Of a DNA stretch of 64,000 nucleotides, positions 7,143-64,000 are shown in pieces (position 1 is the first letter of the stretch; each line of letters begins with the position of its first letter). Source of the stretch: Gluconobacter cadivus (lineage in GTDB: Bacteria; Pseudomonadota; Alphaproteobacteria; Acetobacterales; Acetobacteraceae); the NCBI RefSeq assembly GCF_015244745.1, contig NZ_JABCQI010000005.1, positions 124,001-188,000 on the forward strand, written 5' to 3'. Both the position numbers and the translations under genes were made by a program. Under the pieces are notes generated by a model. It had not been told where the DNA came from. It did not search any database and saw only the letters and a program-made list of their open reading frames with translations.

Positions 7143-7778
7143 ATGGAATGGTTTTACGACAACAACGGGCAGCAGGCCGGTCCAGTCTCCCGTGAGGAAA
7201 TCCTGCGTCTGATCATGCAGCGGCAGATCAAGCCCGAAACGCTCGTCTGGACACAGGAATTCGGCGCAACATGGCGTCCGGCCAGCGCTGCGGGGCTCGT
7301 CTCTCCGCTGACGGGACTTCTGCGGATGTCTGCGGGGAGTTCGGAGCACTGGGCCTGGGCGCTTCTGGTGGGTCCGTGGCTGATCCAACGCCTGACGCTG
7401 CTGATCCTGGACTGGCGTCAGATTCCGGATAGTGGCCGGGTAGGGCCGCTGTCCGTCGTCGGGATGATGTCGCTGCTCCTGTTCTTCATATCGTTCATGC
7501 TGGACCGTAATTCCCTTCGCGAAAGCGGAAAGACGCCGCCGGGTTTCTGGTGGTGGCTGTTTCTGCCGGGATATTTCTGGAAGCGGCGCCAGATCGTCGG
7601 TCGCGGGCTGTCGCTGCTGATCGTCAGCCTTGTGCTTCTTGCCGTCAATGTGACGGAGAAAATCTATCAGTTCCCTCAGATCGAAAAGGAACTTCAGATG
7701 CAGCATGGACAGACGGCTCAGCCCGCTCCATCGGCTCCATCAGAGCCCGGTCAGGAAAATCAGCAGGAAGAGCTCTGA
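7143..7778 (+). CDS. GYF_2 (DUF4339) domain membrane protein
   Basis: A 211-residue protein. The N-terminus MEWFYDNNGQQAGPVSREEI is the canonical opening of the GYF_2/DUF4339 domain (about residues 2-48, with the WTQEFGATWRPA closing motif), thought to bind proline-rich peptides. After it come three hydrophobic segments (about residues 77-95, 98-120 and 158-174) separated by the Trp-rich stretch GFWWWLFLPGYFW, and a Gln/Pro/Glu-rich C-terminal tail. The start is fixed by the domain at the ATG at 7143, only one base after the T-tract of the preceding terminator; the only ribosome site (GGGAGG, 7128-7133) is inside that hairpin. No specific function is known; it stands alone between the csbD-like gene and rnhB. 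Confidence 0.8.
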   Translation: MEWFYDNNGQQAGPVSREEILRLIMQRQIKPETLVWTQEFGATWRPASAAGLVSPLTGLLRMSAGSSEHWAWALLVGPWLIQRLTLLILDWRQIPDSGRVGPLSVVGMMSLLLFFISFMLDRNSLRESGKTPPGFWWWLFLPGYFWKRRQIVGRGLSLLIVSLVLLAVNVTEKIYQFPQIEKELQMQHGQTAQPAPSAPSEPGQENQQEEL

Positions 7779-7791
7779 CACCGTAGGCAAA

Positions 7792-7881
7792 GAGTCTTTC
7801 CCACCACACTTGACATATTAAACTTAGAACTCCTGCATTTTTGGGCTTCCCTTTCGAGTCGCCATGATTCAAAACCGATTC
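7792..7881. promoter_or_regulatory. GANTC cluster upstream of rnhB-ccrM (probable methylation-sensitive control region)
   Basis: Four GANTC sites fall in 90 bases: 7792-7796, 7856-7860, 7866-7870 and 7877-7881. The last three start 10 and 11 bases apart, so they lie on one face of the helix. The downstream operon encodes the enzyme that methylates GANTC. A TTGACA hexamer at 7810 could be a -35 element, but its -10 partner is weak. In Caulobacter, GANTC sites in the ccrM leader mediate feedback; the same role here is inference. Confidence 0.6.
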
Positions 7882-7924
7882 GGTCACCTGATTTCGCGGT
7901 GATCTGTCGGGGAGACACTCAGAA

Positions 7925-8548
7925 ATGCCGGATTACGCCCTTGAAGCTGCCCATGGGGGGCTGGTCGTCGGGATCGACGAAGTCGGGCGTGGTCCTCTGG
8001 CAGGGCCGGTCGTGGCCTCCGCCGTGGCTTTTACAGCCCGGCCGTCTGACACTCTGTCTGCCCTTCTCGATGATTCCAAGAAGCTGACGGCCCGACGCCG
8101 GATGCTCGCCTATGAGGCCTTGATGGCCGACGAACAGGCGTTGATCGGCATTGGTGCGGCATCGGTTCTGGAAATCGAGCAGATCAATATCGCCCAGGCC
8201 TGCTATCTGGCCATGCGCCGAGCGCTGTCCCGGCTCGGCCGAACGCCGGACCTTGCCCTCGTGGACGGCAAACACGCCCCGAAACTGCCCTGTCCCATCA
8301 AGATGGTGATCGGTGGCGACGGGATCAGCCTGTCCATTGCTGCAGCCTCCATCATCGCCAAGGTGACGCGGGACCGCCTGATGGCGCGTCTGGCCATGCG
8401 CCACGATGCTTATGGCTGGGAGCGCAATGCGGGTTACGGCACGGCTGCACACATGCAGGGTTTGAAGCTCCGTGGGGTGACACCTCATCACAGGCGCGGG
8501 TTCGCGCCGATACGAAACATGATTGAAGCAGAGGCACACGCAGCATGA
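7925..8548 (+). CDS. rnhB: Ribonuclease HII
   Basis: Cleaves the RNA strand of RNA-DNA hybrids, including single ribonucleotides misincorporated into DNA. At 207 residues it has normal length. The catalytic acidic residues are visible: D18 and E19 in [13 protein letters not shown]114 in [10 protein letters not shown], and D150 in AKVTRDR; the C-terminal HHRRGFAPI segment is also characteristic. The ATG at 7925 follows GGGGAGA by about ten bases. The stop overlaps the ccrM start by four bases (ATGA), so the two genes form a translationally coupled operon; rnhB next to ccrM is a frequent pairing in alphaproteobacteria. Confidence 0.97.
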
Positions 8549-57973: not shown

Positions 57974-59062
57974 GTGCCGGACCCCACGAATTCTTCCCCT
58001 GATCCTCTGAAAACCGATCTGCGTCGCGTCGATATCAATCCGGACTTCTGGTATCCGCTGGCGTGGTCGAAGGATCTTAAACGCGGGAAGACGATCGGGC
58101 GTCGGTTTGGGCGGCATCCGATTGCACTGGTCCGGCCTGAGGAAGGCAGCGTGTTTGCGTTGGAAGATCGCTGCGCGCACCGTCAGGTTCCGCTCAGTCT
58201 GGGCAAGGTGAGCGGTGAGGCTGTTCAGTGCTGCTATCACGGCTGGGCGTATGGCCGCTCGGGGCGCTGCATTGATGTGCCCTATCTCGGTAAGGGCAAG
58301 CTTCCGAACGGTGTGGGGACCTATCCCTGCCGTGAAGCGGGCGGGATGATTTTCGTGTTTCCCGGTGATGCGGCGAAAGCGGAGAGCGTTCCTCTGCCGC
58401 CGCTGGCGCAGGTGGACAATCCGGCGTTCAAGACGCGGCATTTCAGCCCTGTCGTGAAATGCCATTACACGTTCATGCATGAGAACCTGATGGACATGAA
58501 CCATCAGTTCCTGCACCGCCGCCAGATGGGGCAGATCAGGGCGCGTTTTCTGGGGCAGGATGCGGGCGAGGGTTTTATTGAGGCGCGCTACAGTTTCGCA
58601 CGCAGTGGCAACCAGCAGCCACTGGCGGAGCGGTTGATTTTCGGCAAGCATCACGATGATCCGGGCCGTGAACAGCCGGTTGAGGAAATCGTGAGTATCC
58701 GCACGACCTATCCGTATCAGAGCCTCAAAATCCACGACAAGGACGGCGACCTGATTATGGAACTGTTCAGTGTTTACGTCCCGAATAGTGCTGATGGTGC
58801 GAGTACGCAGACATTCGGTCTGCTTTCGGTGCTGCGTCCGAAAACGCCATTTCTGATTGATGTGATTTGGCCTGCGCTGGGCATTTTCACGAACCGGATT
58901 TTTGAGGAAGACCGGGAGATCATGGAACTGGAGCAGGCGGCCTGGCGGGACTTGGGGGGCGATCACAACGTCGAAGTTTTCCCGATCGTGCGAAAGTTGC
59001 GCGATCTTCTGAAGGCCGAGGGGATTGTGAGGGAACAGAGCGCGGATCCTGTCGTTGTCTGA
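57974..59062 (+). CDS. Rieske non-haem iron oxygenase, alpha subunit
   Basis: 362 residues. Rieske [2Fe-2S] ligands: CAH (near 65) and CCYH (near 85; C-x2-H). Mononuclear iron site: ENLMDMNHQFLH near residue 168, matching NxxDxxHxxxxH. GTG start at 57974 with GGAGAGG upstream. The family hydroxylates or demethylates aromatic or other small molecules; the substrate is not evident. No ferredoxin or reductase gene is adjacent, so electrons must come from elsewhere. 36 bases before the aldo/keto reductase, likely cotranscribed. Confidence 0.9.
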   Translation: MPDPTNSSPDPLKTDLRRVDINPDFWYPLAWSKDLKRGKTIGRRFGRHPIALVRPEEGSVFALEDRCAHRQVPLSLGKVSGEAVQCCYHGWAYGRSGRCIDVPYLGKGKLPNGVGTYPCREAGGMIFVFPGDAAKAESVPLPPLAQVDNPAFKTRHFSPVVKCHYTFMHENLMDMNHQFLHRRQMGQIRARFLGQDAGEGFIEARYSFARSGNQQPLAERLIFGKHHDDPGREQPVEEIVSIRTTYPYQSLKIHDKDGDLIMELFSVYVPNSADGASTQTFGLLSVLRPKTPFLIDVIWPALGIFTNRIFEEDREIMELEQAAWRDLGGDHNVEVFPIVRKLRDLLKAEGIVREQSADPVVV

Positions 59063-59944: not shown

Positions 59945-60051
59945 CGGTCGTGATGGTTGCGGTCCGTTCTCCCTAACCTGCGGACCGCGCCCTGCATATT
60001 TTCACGTCCCTGTTCCATACTGATCCGGTTTCTCTCTGCTTTGCGGTTCTG

Positions 60052-61293
60052 GTGGTGCCTGCTTGTGTGCTGGTGCTTCAGCCGGGGCGGTTCGGGCAGG
60101 CCGTAACCGTATGTCTGGCGGCTCTGGCTGCGGTATTGGCGCTTTCGCCTGCCGTGCTGGCTGTGGCGCTGGGCGTGATTGCGGCGCAGGAGCGGGATGG
60201 CTGTCCGGCGGTATGGGGTGTTCCGGTTCTGCTGCTGAGCGTTCTGTTTCCAGCCCAGACGCCTGTTCTTCTGGGGTTGCTGCCTCTTCTGTTCTGGACT
60301 GCGCTCGTGCGTCGCAGAGACGGGGGCTGCTCCGCCGTTATGAGCATTCTGGGTGTGTCGCTGGTGTGGCATGCTCCGGGGGCTGTATCGGCGGAGCTGG
60401 TTGCGGGTCTGGGCGTGTGTGTGCTCGGGTTGATCGGCTGGGCTGTTCTGGGAGCGCATCGGCCGGGAAATCTGGGGCTTTTGCGCCCCCTTCTGTTGGT
60501 GGTTCTCGTGGTGGCCGCGCAGGATGAGGGGCTTGCGGTCTGTGCCCGGATTGCGCTGGAAGCCGCGTTTCTTGATCTCGCAACGCTGGTTTTGACGGCG
60601 TCACTGGGGCCTTGGTTTCCGGTGATGGCCGTATTGCGGCTGCCGTTTCCGCCTTTGCCCGGACTGGTTGTGTTGTGGCTTGGGATTCATGCGGCGCTGA
60701 GCATGGCGGCGGGTGTCGAAGGCTGGAGCGTGCTCGGCGTGATGGTGGCATTGCTGCTGGGCGTTCTGGCGCTGTCCGATCTGCTTGTCGTTGGGCGGCA
60801 GATATCTGGAGGGCAGGCTGCCATATCCGGTGTTTCCGTATTGCTGGTGGGTGTTGGGAGCCTATTTTTGCCCGCGCTGGTGTTCGGGCTGACAAGTCCT
60901 GCGCTGCATGGTGTGGGAGGGGAGTGGGTCTGGCCCGTCTGGAGTATTGGTGCGGGTGATGGCTCACATTTCCGGCTGATGGCCTTCGTGATGGTTGGAG
61001 CCCTGATCTGGATTGTTCTCGTGCGTCCCTGGCGCATTATGGGGGGGGTCGTTCAGGCGGCCTCCACGCTGGCTCCGGCATTGATGACACTGCTGGCATC
61101 AGGCGATGCCCTGTTTGAAGAGGCACCGTCTCTGGGCTGGAGCCTGCGCCGTTTTGTCGTGTCAGGGCGAGTCCGCTTGAGGGCGCTGAAGGGGATGAAA
61201 GCACCTGTTCTGCCCGATCTGCGTCAGGGGGCCGTGGGGCTCTGGCTTGTTCTTCTTGGCCTCGTTCTCGCAGTGCTGGGAGTGATGACGTAA
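60052..61293 (+). CDS. HyfB-like antiporter-type membrane subunit (short, lysine-poor)
   Basis: At least 413 residues and about 11-12 hydrophobic segments, similar in pattern to the antiporter-like subunits of hydrogenase-4 and complex I, but about 250 residues shorter than HyfB. The antiporter core motif appears only as a remnant (RLPFPPLPGLVVLWLGIHAA near residue 196). There is no lysine until LKGMK near residue 384, so the conserved TM lysines that move protons are missing. The start is uncertain: the frame has no ATG; GTG at 60052 or CTG at 59992 (LHIFTSLFHTDPV) are the options. Shares one base with the next start (TAATG). Confidence 0.6.
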   Translation: MVPACVLVLQPGRFGQAVTVCLAALAAVLALSPAVLAVALGVIAAQERDGCPAVWGVPVLLLSVLFPAQTPVLLGLLPLLFWTALVRRRDGGCSAVMSILGVSLVWHAPGAVSAELVAGLGVCVLGLIGWAVLGAHRPGNLGLLRPLLLVVLVVAAQDEGLAVCARIALEAAFLDLATLVLTASLGPWFPVMAVLRLPFPPLPGLVVLWLGIHAALSMAAGVEGWSVLGVMVALLLGVLALSDLLVVGRQISGGQAAISGVSVLLVGVGSLFLPALVFGLTSPALHGVGGEWVWPVWSIGAGDGSHFRLMAFVMVGALIWIVLVRPWRIMGGVVQAASTLAPALMTLLASGDALFEEAPSLGWSLRRFVVSGRVRLRALKGMKAPVLPDLRQGAVGLWLVLLGLVLAVLGVMT

Positions 61294-62162
61294 TGGCGCA
61301 TGATGCGGGGCTGATTGCGCTGTCGGTTCTGGAAGCGCTGTTTCAACTGGGGTTGCTGCTCGTTCTGGCGCCTGCGCTGGGGTGGTGTCTGGACGGTCTG
61401 CCGTTCTGGCTGGCGGGCCGCGCGGGTGGTGCGGTGCGGTTTCATCTCTTGGGTGCGGGGCGGTTCTGGAAATCCCTGTTCCAGACACCGCTCACAGGGC
61501 GTCCGGCGCTTGCGTTGACCGTGGGGCTGCTGGCGCTGGTGTGCCTGCCTGCGGTGACAACGGGGTCGGTGCTGTCTTCGCTGGCGGATCCGCTCGTCAT
61601 GGGGCTCATGCTGTTGATGGGGCGTGGATTTCTGGGGCCGGGCGTTTTGTCGGGAGAGGCATCGCGTCTGGTTCCGGCGGTTCTGCTGCTGTGCCTGACG
61701 GAAGCACTGATCGCGCTGGCCGCTCCGGGGACAAATGGCCTTGGGGGCTTGTGTGCGATGTTGCATATCGAGCCTGAGCCGGGTCTAGAGGGTGCACTTG
61801 CGGCCTGTGCGCTGGCTCTGGGAATTGCATGTCCGCCGCTTCGTTCCGAGGACGTGACGGGTATGTTGTCCGGGGTGCGGGACCGGCAGGAGCGTGAGGC
61901 GGCGCGCAGTATTGCGGATGTGCTGAATTGTGGCTGGCTGCTGCTGTTGGCCGATCTGGCATGGCCGGTGAGTGTGGGGCTCGCGCAAGGCGGCGTTCAG
62001 GGCTGGGGGCTCGGACTGGTGGCACTTGCCGCACGGCTGGCGCTGGCTGTGAGCGTGGCGGTCGGGCTGAGGCTGATGGCGCAGGAGCGGAGCGCACGTT
62101 TGACGGCGCTGTTTGCGGGCGTGGCGCTTCTTCTGGCTCTGGCGGGGAGGTTTGGCACATGA
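61293..62162 (+). CDS. HyfC/NuoH-like membrane subunit
   Basis: 289 residues with about eight hydrophobic segments. WLAGRAGGAVRFHLLGAGRF and WKSLFQ match the first loop of HyfC/HycD/NuoH proteins (GRRGP... and RDLWKL-type), which lines the path to the quinone or hydrogenase site. The acidic loop residues of NuoH are only partly present. ATG overlaps the previous stop by one base; its stop overlaps the next start (ATGA). Confidence 0.65.
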   Translation: MAHDAGLIALSVLEALFQLGLLLVLAPALGWCLDGLPFWLAGRAGGAVRFHLLGAGRFWKSLFQTPLTGRPALALTVGLLALVCLPAVTTGSVLSSLADPLVMGLMLLMGRGFLGPGVLSGEASRLVPAVLLLCLTEALIALAAPGTNGLGGLCAMLHIEPEPGLEGALAACALALGIACPPLRSEDVTGMLSGVRDRQEREAARSIADVLNCGWLLLLADLAWPVSVGLAQGGVQGWGLGLVALAARLALAVSVAVGLRLMAQERSARLTALFAGVALLLALAGRFGT

Positions 62163-62680
62163 TTGTAGGGTTCGGACTTCTTCTGTTGCTAGCCCTTGCA
62201 GGGTTGGGGAAAGACGGGCGGGGGCTGCCGCTTTACGGGGCGGTTTGCGCTTTTGCCGGGGCGACGGTCTGTTCGGGGCTGCTGGCGCTGCTGACGTCTG
62301 TGGCGCTGATTGGACTGAACGTTCTGGCATGGGGCTGGCTGCGGCGGTTTGCGCCGGAAGCGCCGGACAAGGCAGCTGTTCTGCCGGTTGTGGGTACGCT
62401 TGTTCTGCTTCTGGCACTTGGTTTGTCGGGGGCTGGTCTGGGACTTGCTCCGGTTCTGGGCGCGGGGGCGGTTCTGGCCGGGTTATGTGGTGCTGCTTGG
62501 GGCACGCCGCTGGTTCAGTTCACCGGGCTGGTCCGGGCGGCGGACGGGCTGGTTGTTGTGGCGTGCGTTCTGAATTCATGGCCGCTTTTTGCTGCTGCTT
62601 TGAGTCTGTGGGGCGTTCTGGCGGCCCTTGGCATCACGCTGCTGCCCCGTCTGGCATGGCGACGGGTGGAGGACGTCTGA
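62159..62680 (+). CDS. HyfE-like small membrane subunit
   Basis: 173 residues with five or six membrane segments; the size and place after the HyfC-like gene match HyfE of hydrogenase-4 (a NuoK-like element). Its ATG at 62159 lies within the stop of the previous gene, which fixes the start. hyfD has no equivalent between. Confidence 0.6.
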   Translation: MIVGFGLLLLLALAGLGKDGRGLPLYGAVCAFAGATVCSGLLALLTSVALIGLNVLAWGWLRRFAPEAPDKAAVLPVVGTLVLLLALGLSGAGLGLAPVLGAGAVLAGLCGAAWGTPLVQFTGLVRAADGLVVVACVLNSWPLFAAALSLWGVLAALGITLLPRLAWRRVEDV

Positions 62681-63768
62681 TGCATCCGCTCGCACCCGTC
62701 GGCACGCTGTTTGCCGTCACTGTCTGGCCGCTTCTGGCAGCGTTCCTGCTGTTCCTGACGCCTGAAAACCGTCAGGCCGCCAGTAGCCGGACGTTCGCTG
62801 TGGCGGGGCTTGTCATCACGCCGCTGGCCGTGTGGCTGATGCCGGGGACGGACGCTCTGGCCGCGGCGTGTTCTTGCATCGTGACGGCCATTCCGCTGCT
62901 TCTCCCGCAGGCGCGGGACCGGACAGGGCGGATACTGCCGTTTCTGGTGACGGGATGTGCGTTGCTGGCGCTGAACGTCCATTCGGCGTTCGCGGTGACG
63001 ATCCTGTGTGGCGCGGGAGCAGTTCTTCTGGCGTGGCGCGAAGGGCGTGCTCCCCGGCAGGCGGCTATTGTGTGGGATATTGCGCGCAGTCGGCTTGGGG
63101 GCGTGGTTCTGGGGCTTCTGGGCGCGTCGCTTCTACCGATGCAGCAGTCATCGCTGGGGGCGGTGCTGCTGACGGTCGGGCTGTGCATGGTGGCGGGTCT
63201 GGGGCCATCACCCGCGCCTGCGCCGGAGGCGGCGCTTCTGGATACGGGGCTGCGGTTTGCGGCGCTGATGCTGATGTTCCGCCTGAGTGCCTATCCGCTG
63301 GTCCATCTGCTCATGCTGATTGCGGGTTTTGGAACACTCCTCATGCTGGTGGTGCCGCGCTCGACGGGGCGGACGATCTCTCTGCCGATGCTGTCGGCGC
63401 TGGGTGCTATTGCGGCCGCGACCGGCGAAGGTCCGGCGATCGTTCTGCTGCTTCTGGCGGCGCTGGGACTGGCTGTTCTGGATTTGTATGAGGCCGAGGG
63501 GGCGGAGGCCATCGGGGCAGGAGTCGCACCGTGGCCGGTGTTCTGTGCGCTGGTCGGGATCGGGCGGTCGCTTGATGTCGGGCAACTTGTTCTGCTGGTG
63601 TTGTGTCTGCTGCCTGCTTTGTGGTCCGTGCGGCCTATGACGTTGCTGCCAGCGTTTGGGCGCGGTGAGCGGGGTATCGTAGCTGTGACGCAGGCTGTTC
63701 TTCTGCTGGGCGGTTTGTGTGGCCCGCTATTTCTTGCATGGCATCCGGTGACGGGGTGGCGACCATGA
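62680..63768 (+). CDS. HyfF-like antiporter-type membrane subunit without lysine
   Basis: 362 residues and about 11 hydrophobic segments, about 160 shorter than HyfF. MHPLAPVGTLFAVTVWPLLA opens the protein. No lysine occurs in the whole sequence, so the proton-pumping lysines of the family are absent; few acidic residues lie in membrane segments. TGATG overlap at the start and ATGA at the end. Confidence 0.6.
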   Translation: MHPLAPVGTLFAVTVWPLLAAFLLFLTPENRQAASSRTFAVAGLVITPLAVWLMPGTDALAAACSCIVTAIPLLLPQARDRTGRILPFLVTGCALLALNVHSAFAVTILCGAGAVLLAWREGRAPRQAAIVWDIARSRLGGVVLGLLGASLLPMQQSSLGAVLLTVGLCMVAGLGPSPAPAPEAALLDTGLRFAALMLMFRLSAYPLVHLLMLIAGFGTLLMLVVPRSTGRTISLPMLSALGAIAAATGEGPAIVLLLLAALGLAVLDLYEAEGAEAIGAGVAPWPVFCALVGIGRSLDVGQLVLLVLCLLPALWSVRPMTLLPAFGRGERGIVAVTQAVLLLGGLCGPLFLAWHPVTGWRP

Positions 63769-64000
63769 GAAGCATGGGACGGATCATCCGCAGTGGCGAA
63801 CGTGTGGCGCTGTCGCATTATCATCTCGATCCCGCACAGTGGAGCGATATGCTCTGTGTTCCGGGCGCGACGTTGCCGCTGATCTCGTGCTGGGCGGATG
63901 ATGCGCGCGCCTATGTTCTGCTGCTGGAGGGGGATCGCCCGATTCTGGCGAGTACGGTTGTGGAAGACCGTCGGTATCTGGCGCCGTCGTCGCGGTTTGC
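63765..64000 (+). CDS. Partial gene, N-terminus of HyfG-like large subunit
   Basis: 78 residues visible and the frame is open at the right edge. ATG at 63765 overlaps the previous stop (ATGA). The sequence (SHYHLDPAQWSDML; LISCWADDARAYVLLLEGDR) resembles the NuoC-like N-terminal domain of HyfG/HycE, ending in a segment like the PSLTxxxPAA motif (YLAPSSRF). Whether the downstream part has the NiFe-binding CxxC pairs cannot be seen here. Confidence 0.5.
   Translation, partial: MRSMGRIIRSGERVALSHYHLDPAQWSDMLCVPGATLPLISCWADDARAYVLLLEGDRPILASTVVEDRRYLAPSSRF

Follow-up and report, generated by a model that had tools for sequence, protein, structure and literature searches.

This locus raises the question of what a membrane operon resembling hydrogenase-4 and complex I could do in a strict aerobe. 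The window, a 64,000-nucleotide stretch of Gluconobacter cadivus DNA, ends inside the fifth gene of this operon (G), and the sixth (I) lies wholly past it. Six overlapping genes follow each other in the order B-C-E-F-G and then I, with B to G at 59992-65204 and I at 65201-65686. A sequence-only reading of the window had described tightly coupled genes, and gene ends and overlaps are as claimed, with TAATG at the B/C junction (61291-61295), ATGA at C/E (at 62159), TGATG at E/F (at 62678) and ATGA at F/G (at 63765); a GTGA overlap at 65201 joins G to I, the stop of G being at 65204 and that of I at 65686. The reading had also anticipated the rest of G, a HyfI-like gene and ferredoxins past position 64000. 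The first two are present, whereas ferredoxin-type genes are not: none of the six operon proteins, nor the next gene on either side, matches a ferredoxin-type family of Pfam or NCBIfam. The gene directly downstream of G is NuoB/HyfI-like, in keeping with the NuoB/C/D-type assignment, and is followed by a ROK kinase gene unrelated to the operon. An equivalent of HyfD is missing from the operon, as are an NADH module, NuoI and NuoA/J/K-type genes. The order B-C-E-F-G recurs in all 22 loci with a shortened B (the short-B set). Of 19 additional Gluconobacter loci, 18 share it, and the contig of the 19th starts at C; chance is ruled out for this arrangement.

Subunit assignments are firmest for the two soluble components. 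G (63765..65204, + strand, with 63765..64000 in the window) encodes a HyfG/HycE/NuoCD-like large subunit of 479 aa, assigned by Pfam/NCBIfam, without NiFe cysteine pairs. It matches Complex1_49kDa (E 7e-13) and, at E 3e-4, too weak for the family's cut-off, the C-terminal part of NiFeSe_Hases; the closest solved chains are FHL subunit 5 (E 1.8e-57) and MBH alpha (2.2e-53). Its 97% identity to G of G. kondonii places the organism in Gluconobacter, so that the premise of a strict aerobe was right. I (65201-65686, + strand; L001:6202-6687) encodes a HyfI/NuoB-like small subunit of 161 aa (Oxidored_q6, E 3e-24), with FHL subunit 7 as the closest solved chain. It keeps CxxC...C...C, a sequence pattern for one [4Fe-4S] cluster that would be present and redox-active, and these four cysteines are kept in all 22 short-B genomes. 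In seven of the 22, the I gene has moved out of the operon; a loss of the sole FeS subunit from these seven operons was considered and rejected, as whole-genome searches located I elsewhere in each of the seven genomes.

Of the HMM searches proposed in the sequence-only reading, those with G and I reached hydrogenase/complex I families, whereas for B, C, E and F no Pfam or NCBIfam family scored above cut-off, and ten membrane proteins of the related operons L032, L064 and L066, full-length B included, had no Pfam match above cut-off either. The HyfB/C/F/G-like calls nevertheless stood, G by Pfam, B and F by predicted fold and C by profile, while E was placed by position and intermediate sequences. 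B (59992..61293, + strand, 433 aa) is a shortened, HyfB/HycC-derived antiporter-like subunit whose predicted fold is closest to HycC (7z0t_C; VIA Z 20.6, rmsd 3.6, 321 aligned), in a tie with chain N of E. coli complex I (Z 20.4). For B, the best match of Foldseek on its own was weak (E 0.025), and a profile link of 96.2% connects short B to full-length B. Translation of B probably starts at the CTG codon at 59992, since the first in-frame ATG/GTG/TTG after the preceding stop is a GTG at 60052, and the CTG is invariant in 18/18 Gluconobacter B loci compared, with conserved coding sequence downstream of it. C (61293..62162, + strand, 289 aa) is HyfC/HycD (ND1/NuoH)-like by profile alignment and residue comparison, and has lost the carboxylate motif PFDxAEAExEL; the profile of the short-B set aligns with canonical C at 97.4% and with HyfC at 80.7%. 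F (62680..63768, + strand, 362 aa) is an antiporter-like protein at the HyfF position, with the TM7 Lys position replaced (GLCMVAGLGP) in the motif column; its AlphaFold2 model (pLDDT 86.6) fits 4he8_I of Thermus complex I (VIA Z 32.4, rmsd 2.8, 334 aligned). E (62159..62680, + strand, 173 aa) is a membrane subunit at the HyfE position. Canonical E matches the HyfE profile at 97.6%, and an E-family HMM, for which canonical loci supplied part of the sequences, matches in 50/50 of them, but direct profile comparison of short-B-set E with canonical E reached only 4.9%. Direct E-HyfE and F-HyfF profile matching failed (4.2% and 0.9%); F was later identified by its fold, E only in part.

Is the complex a hydrogenase? 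Both NiFe CxxC pairs, which the sequence-only reading had suggested looking for, are absent from all 100 G homologs: 99 loci have a G without any CxxC, L214 has a single CVDC, and the 41 aligned G show no CxxC column, while both pairs are evident in the controls, E. coli HyfG and HycE (RVCGIC, DPCYSC). HypD was found in none of 22 genomes, that of G. cadivus included, by a search that matched 4/14 control genomes, E. coli among them. As judged from sequence, a hydrogenase identity is thus excluded for the Gluconobacter complex, and the proposal of an Ehr-like (energy-converting-hydrogenase-related) layout without HyfD, rather than a true formate hydrogenlyase, is borne out. A true group 4 hydrogenase or formate hydrogenlyase, which the close relation of G and I to FHL subunits 5 and 7 might bring to mind, has a negligible probability, as the NiFe ligands, HypD and a ferredoxin-type subunit among the six genes are all missing. 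E. coli Hyc/Hyf has the subunit homology and the relative order B-C-E-F-G-I in common with the Gluconobacter operon, but hyf also has A, D, H and J, all of which are missing here along with the NiFe pairs.

With respiratory complex I, the operon shares NuoB, NuoCD, NuoH and NuoL/N-type proteins, but not its NADH module, NuoI and NuoA/J/K-type genes. A search of the G. cadivus genome for PF00361, PF01058 and PF00346 gave no Proton_antipo_M (PF00361) match and a single match each of Oxidored_q6 and Complex1_49kDa, both in the operon. Twelve of the 22 short-B genomes are likewise without a complex I antiporter match, and G. oxydans lacks a nuo operon according to part of a published comparison (PMC4596401). 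Known Ehr complexes, for example EhrA/C/L/S of Geobacter sulfurreducens, resemble the Gluconobacter complex in having group-4-related large and small subunits without Ni/Fe ligands; excerpts of the literature describe NuoL-like, HyfE-like and other membrane subunits for them and a suspected or unknown function (PMC6349859, PMC10284858, PMC7894505). The Gluconobacter operon combines G and I homologous to group 4 hydrogenases and to NuoD and NuoB, without the Ni/Fe cysteines, with antiporter-like genes (F and B, by predicted fold) and an ND1-like gene (C, by profile), and an Ehr-type member of the complex I superfamily is the best explanation.

The Ehr class itself is already known; new here is that the membrane arm has been stripped in addition to the NiFe loss. 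Unlike known Ehr complexes, the Gluconobacter complex has a B cut to about 430 aa and no donor gene in the operon, and in one Acetobacteraceae clade that includes Gluconobacter, the antiporter Lys/Glu/His residues, the HyfC carboxylates and the G loop histidines are all lost. Canonical Ehr loci of other Alphaproteobacteria and of other Acetobacteraceae (e.g., L165, L168, L186, L202) also miss the NiFe pair and are direct relatives in the G tree, but keep the antiporter motif (KAGLVPLHVWL type), which is present in 51 loci, namely 50 plus L209, a canonical locus whose KVG variant escaped the motif pattern. In the G tree, the rows lacking the motif group together as a single 46-member clade, which has several long branches and contains no canonical row. 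Two loci, L059 and L213, have lost the Lys but kept PLHGW and stand between the canonical and the fully stripped forms, whereas upstream of the G and I homologs of L215 neither a C nor an antiporter gene was found. The B proteins of L057, L070 and L071 retain the HyfB positions E142, K221, H348, K352 and E407, and that of L058 most of them, whereas the stripped rows do not. The carboxylate motif, whose pattern matches HyfC, HycD and NuoH as controls, occurs in C of 43/50 canonical loci, 48 of which have a located C, and in 0/43 loci lacking the antiporter motif, 41 of which have one. The G loop histidines, at frequencies of 1.0 and 0.98 in the 51 canonical loci, are lost in the stripped set, which, as a sequence argument, speaks against quinone reduction in the manner of complex I.

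Columns conserved at 80% point the same way. Canonical loci have 4K4E in B, 4K8E in C and 3K5E in F, although the B and F counts include one Lys and one His from the motif used to pick these loci, whereas no Lys or Glu column is found in B, C, E or F of the 22-locus short-B set. Part of this absence is expected from the lower overall conservation of the short-B set, whose membrane subunits have 25-40 conserved columns each vs 132-151 in the canonical loci; a proportional estimate gives about six such columns for B, C and F combined, against none seen. A reading in which no charges are left in the membrane was rejected in that form, as the D/E/K share of membrane cores, by a crude hydropathy definition, is only modestly lower (B 2.65, F 2.37 vs 3.0-3.2% in canonical antiporters). 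The charges that are kept make other proton paths possible, and the complex might still pump ions in a redox-driven manner through other residues, like FHL with its non-standard proton path. According to excerpts of PMC9474812, HycC itself lacks the TM7 Lys, several HycC antiporter mutants showed no reduced H2 production, and a triple mutation of the HycD carboxylate motif lowered it by 99%; FHL thus demonstrates that other paths exist, and the lost carboxylate motif is a stronger point than the lost antiporter residues. Continued pumping would also account for two antiporter folds and an ND1-like anchor being kept, but with no conserved Lys/Glu column over 22 loci, and with the C motif and the G loop histidines gone, we regard it as improbable. 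Membrane subunits without ion-conducting residues weaken the idea of continued energy conversion, and the loss of proton-conduction residues across the clade makes a complex without pumping most likely.

A stripped complex might simply be on its way to pseudogene status. In one relative (G126), the operon is indeed pseudogenised, with a broken G frame and a TAG in I, and the long branches of the stripped clade would suit decay. However, the 20 Gluconobacter loci have no stop in the matched stretches, median dN/dS in Gluconobacter is.175 for B,.12 for C,.043 for E,.078 for F,.067 for G and.103 for I, and genomes of only 1.9-2.0 Mb (G032, G118, G170, G070) still carry the operon; in Gluconobacter, none of the six genes is disrupted and purifying selection acts on all of them, and a decaying remnant is very unlikely. 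All six genes were found in each of the 22 short-B genomes, and the operon is a conserved trait of Acetobacteraceae beyond one genome, for which vertical inheritance is the best explanation. A G-type search gave 171/200, a count including matches that are probably complex I NuoD, and 153/200 reach E 1e-30; a class-wide search gave 238 matches in 289 genomes, most of them apparently NuoD-like, with at least 23 genomes outside Acetobacteraceae having a match below E 1e-80. G066 gave no match, and G045 and G154 NuoD-like matches only; together with G126, these cases indicate that the function is dispensable in places.

Selection may also act on a complex that is redox-dead and kept to stabilise or assemble another membrane component. 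Acetobacteraceae are described, in the accessible portion of PMC10715153, as retaining a deranged bc1 complex and a ligand-less COX1-like protein with a presumed structural role; these are different enzymes, but likewise respiratory proteins without cofactor ligands that evolution has kept. In that portion, the operon is not described, and a hydrogenase is named once, a type 1 enzyme. We found no paper on the Gluconobacter operon in the open-licence literature searched, and a founding Ehr paper may discuss related cases. Structural retention appears rather unlikely to us, as it does not predict that I keeps its cluster cysteines throughout the short-B genomes, that I is retained in 7/7 genomes where its gene left the operon, or that G and I (118 of about 480 and 61 of about 160 columns conserved, I over 15 sequences) are more conserved than the membrane arm (25-40 of about 170-440 per subunit); moreover, the 12 genomes without a complex I antiporter match have no complex I to be stabilised.

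Our preferred reading, held at about even confidence, is a module for electron transfer or redox response that is anchored in the membrane, has a single cluster and does not pump. The six proteins would form one complex, with G and I as the soluble module, C as the anchor, E at the HyfE position and B and F as two antiporter-fold subunits. A soluble donor encoded outside the operon would reach the single cluster of I, from which electrons would move on to an acceptor bound by G or C, the membrane subunits being retained as anchor and scaffold; our searches identified neither a donor nor an acceptor. More tentatively, the complex may have been disarmed twice, first at the metal site and then at the pump residues, and kept clade-wide for a non-energy-converting FeS job, possibly redox sensing. 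Ehr complexes occur in many bacteria, and one family here offers a natural series, from canonical Ehr through Lys loss with PLHGW kept to the fully stripped form, which lets one ask what such a complex does without pumping or NiFe chemistry, and which of its parts remain under selection. Gluconobacter is an aerobe used in industry, without a complex I that could mask a phenotype. In Asaia-type relatives, the gene of the FeS subunit heads an nrtR-nadABC cluster, a placement that would suit a link with NAD metabolism.

The operon encodes an energy-converting-hydrogenase-related (Ehr) complex that lacks the conserved residues for pumping and has been retained in a single clade of the Acetobacteraceae. 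The sequence-only reading had described Hyf-like genes in the order B-C-E-F-G, without HyfD and in an Ehr layout, perhaps serving non-hydrogenase electron transfer; gene order and operon were confirmed, the Ehr interpretation found support, and reading on past the window (our locus L001) added the rest of G, which ends at 65204, and a sixth gene, I (65201-65686). Family profiles place G in the NuoD/hydrogenase-large type and I in the NuoB type, and the closest solved chains of both are formate hydrogenlyase (FHL) subunits 5 and 7, followed by archaeal MBH. B, C, E and F gave no family match above the cut-off, and likewise none was found for ten counterparts of the membrane subunits from three related operons. 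In profile alignments, C of the short-B set (22 Acetobacteraceae loci with a shortened B of ~430 aa, ours included) matched C of canonical loci, which carry the antiporter motif, at 97.4% and HyfC at 80.7%. Short B matched the full-length B alignment at 96.2%; the latter reaches 100% against HyfB, though four of its sequences are canonical. AlphaFold2 models built from 32-sequence alignments reached a pLDDT of 86.6 for F and 79.8 for B, whose C-terminal part is of low confidence. All 50 matches listed for the F fold were complex I, NDH-1 or Mrp chains, the best by VIA-align being the Thermus complex I chain 4he8_I, the NuoN homolog, with Z 32.4 over 334 residues. B had its best match in HycC (7z0t_C, Z 20.6 over 321 residues), on a par with chain N of E. 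coli complex I (Z 20.4). E is tentatively placed by its position and by an E-family HMM that matches in 50/50 canonical loci but was built partly from them; the canonical E profile matches HyfE at 97.6%, and the direct comparison of short-B-set with canonical E is weak (4.9%).

Judged from its subunits, the complex is not a hydrogenase. The NiFe CxxC pairs, both seen in the controls E. coli HyfG and HycE, are missing from G: no CxxC column exists among 41 aligned G proteins, and CxxC is absent throughout the matched part of G in 99 of 100 loci, L214 having a single one (CVDC). HypD was found in none of the 22 short-B-set genomes, our own included. Proton_antipo_M has no match in our genome (3.29 Mb) and is absent from 12 of 29 Acetobacteraceae genomes tested, all 12 within the short-B set; our genome's sole Oxidored_q6 and Complex1_49kDa matches fall in this operon. 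According to a published comparison, G. oxydans is without a nuo operon (PMC4596401). Ehr complexes have been described in matching terms, their role being termed suspected or unknown (PMC6349859, PMC10284858), and in Geobacter the Ehr subunits are reported to go up on formate (PMC7894505). Canonical Ehr loci keep the antiporter Lys, Glu and His, mostly also the C carboxylate motif, and the G loop histidines, whereas the Gluconobacter clade does not.

In that clade the membrane arm is stripped of conserved residues. When 16 full-length B proteins were aligned with E. coli antiporters, the key HyfB residues (Glu in TM5 and TM12, Lys in TM7 and TM8, and the TM8 His) were kept in loci L057, L070 and L071; L058 retains three of them, has Arg in place of a fourth and carries Leu at the TM12 position, and L052-L056, L059, L060 and L065-L069 do not keep them, save a few Arg. 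The F column aligned with the TM7 Lys (GLCMVAGLGP) holds Lys in 0/32 F proteins. The HyfC carboxylate motif (HyfC form or PVDNPATHLEL), a pattern that as a control matches HyfC, HycD and NuoH, occurs in 43 of 50 canonical loci (C located in 48) but in none of the 43 loci that lack the antiporter motif (C located in 41). Among 22 canonical sequences sampled of 37 (B), 33 (F) and 48 (C), columns at least 80% conserved comprise four Lys and four Glu in B, three and five in F, and four and eight in C, one Lys and one His of the B and F counts stemming from the selecting motif. In the 22 short-B loci no Lys or Glu column reaches 80% in B, C, E or F; in G, 9 Glu, 11 Asp and 18 Arg columns pass that threshold. 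Conservation as a whole is lower in the short-B set (25 columns in B versus 151 in canonical loci, 29 versus 132 in C and 40 versus 144 in F), but proportionally about six Lys/Glu columns would be expected, versus none seen. As the D/E/K share of the membrane cores, by a crude count, differs little (B 2.65%, F 2.37% versus 3.0-3.2%), we limit the claim of stripping to conserved positions. The G histidine pair GPxHAG...GHF, which we take for the β1-β2 loop, has conservation of 1.0 and 0.98 in 51 canonical loci and is lost in stripped G; the four-cysteine pattern of I is present in 22/22 short-B genomes, seven relocated copies included.

What remains is the small subunit with its cluster, the large subunit and a membrane anchor; what has been lost is the catalytic metal, the conserved residues of the proton path and, between metal and path, the histidines of the loop. 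The simplest reading is a one-cluster, non-pumping module, anchored in the membrane, that would relay electrons from a soluble donor or, alternatively, sense redox state. Its main rival is a structural role of the complex, for which the same family offers precedents in a bc1 complex and a COX1-like protein, both ligand-less and presumed to be retained for structure (PMC10715153). As to the missing residues, a paper on the FHL structure reports that several HycC antiporter mutants left H2 production unlowered, whereas changing HycD E138 cut it by 98%, and changing E199/E201/E203 by 99% (PMC9474812). Going by the spacing, we equate this triple site with the AEAEQE stretch of the motif that our operon has lost.

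The stripped loci form one clade. We labelled 100 loci by a KAGLVPLHVWL-type antiporter motif (50 with, 43 without, 7 with too little upstream sequence), and in a quick-method maximum-likelihood tree of G, which has several long branches, 41 of the 43 motif-less and five of the seven short-upstream loci, ours included, fall into one clade of 46 (support 98) that contains no canonical row; its sister is the canonical L058. The motif-less rows outside are L209, in fact canonical, and L215. L059 and L213 keep PLHGW and have lost the Lys, as expected of intermediates. In other alphaproteobacterial families, 19 of 20 operons taken carry the motif, the exception being L177, whose contig ends early. 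L215 (genome G011) has a G homolog and an I gene, but the 11 kb upstream yielded neither a C nor an antiporter gene. L177 (G367:C21) holds an Ehr-type G in a 0.9 Mb genome rated complete, the contig stopping short of the antiporter gene positions.

Within the clade the operon is retained. All six genes are present in 22/22 short-B genomes, and no stops occur in the matched stretches of 20 Gluconobacter loci (B found in 19, one contig starting at C). From 11-12 close pairs, the median dN/dS comes to 0.175 for B, 0.12 for C, 0.043 for E, 0.078 for F, 0.067 for G and 0.103 for I, beside 0.09, 0.073 and 0.017 for three neighbour genes. Some genomes speak against retention. In G126 (L229, L232; one species of genus g47) G is fragmented and an in-frame TAG interrupts I; the operon of its congener G046 is intact. 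Genome G066 gave no match, and G045 and G154 gave NuoD-like matches only. The closest named relatives of our G are from Gluconobacter species (G. kondonii NBRC 3266, 97% identical), which marks our genome as a Gluconobacter.

The operon is largely fixed at one chromosomal site, which speaks for vertical inheritance. Genes for leucyl aminopeptidase, DNA polymerase III chi (HolC), a Rieske-type oxygenase and an aldo/keto reductase lie 5' of it, and a ROK kinase gene is its 3' neighbour; within the fetched stretch, the aminopeptidase occurs in 28 and a HolC homolog in 30 of 41 Acetobacteraceae loci compared, among them L001, which starts 3' of both genes. The oxygenase gene (57974-59062, between holC and the reductase gene) is VanA-like. 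B apparently starts at a CTG codon at 59992, as no ATG, GTG or TTG lies between the in-frame stop and the GTG at 60052; this CTG is invariant in 18/18 Gluconobacter loci listed, and the coding sequence after it is conserved.

In seven of the 22 short-B genomes I lies outside the fetched stretch and was located elsewhere in the genome. Relocated I adjoins matches to NrtR, NadA, FAD-binding NadB-like and NadC genes in 7/9 stretches, the names coming from Pfam on L088 only and the others being assigned by sequence clusters. The operon still lies near I and near an open frame that we read as NrtR-like in L044 and L051, so the link between I and the nad genes may be an accident of rearrangement. 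In Bombella-type genomes (L040:11683-14556, also L041 and L042), a 958-aa open frame and an opposite-strand gene separate G from I. In L084, L085, L087, L088, L090, L091 and L092, I heads an nrtR-nadA-nadB-nadC cluster at ~7400-8400.
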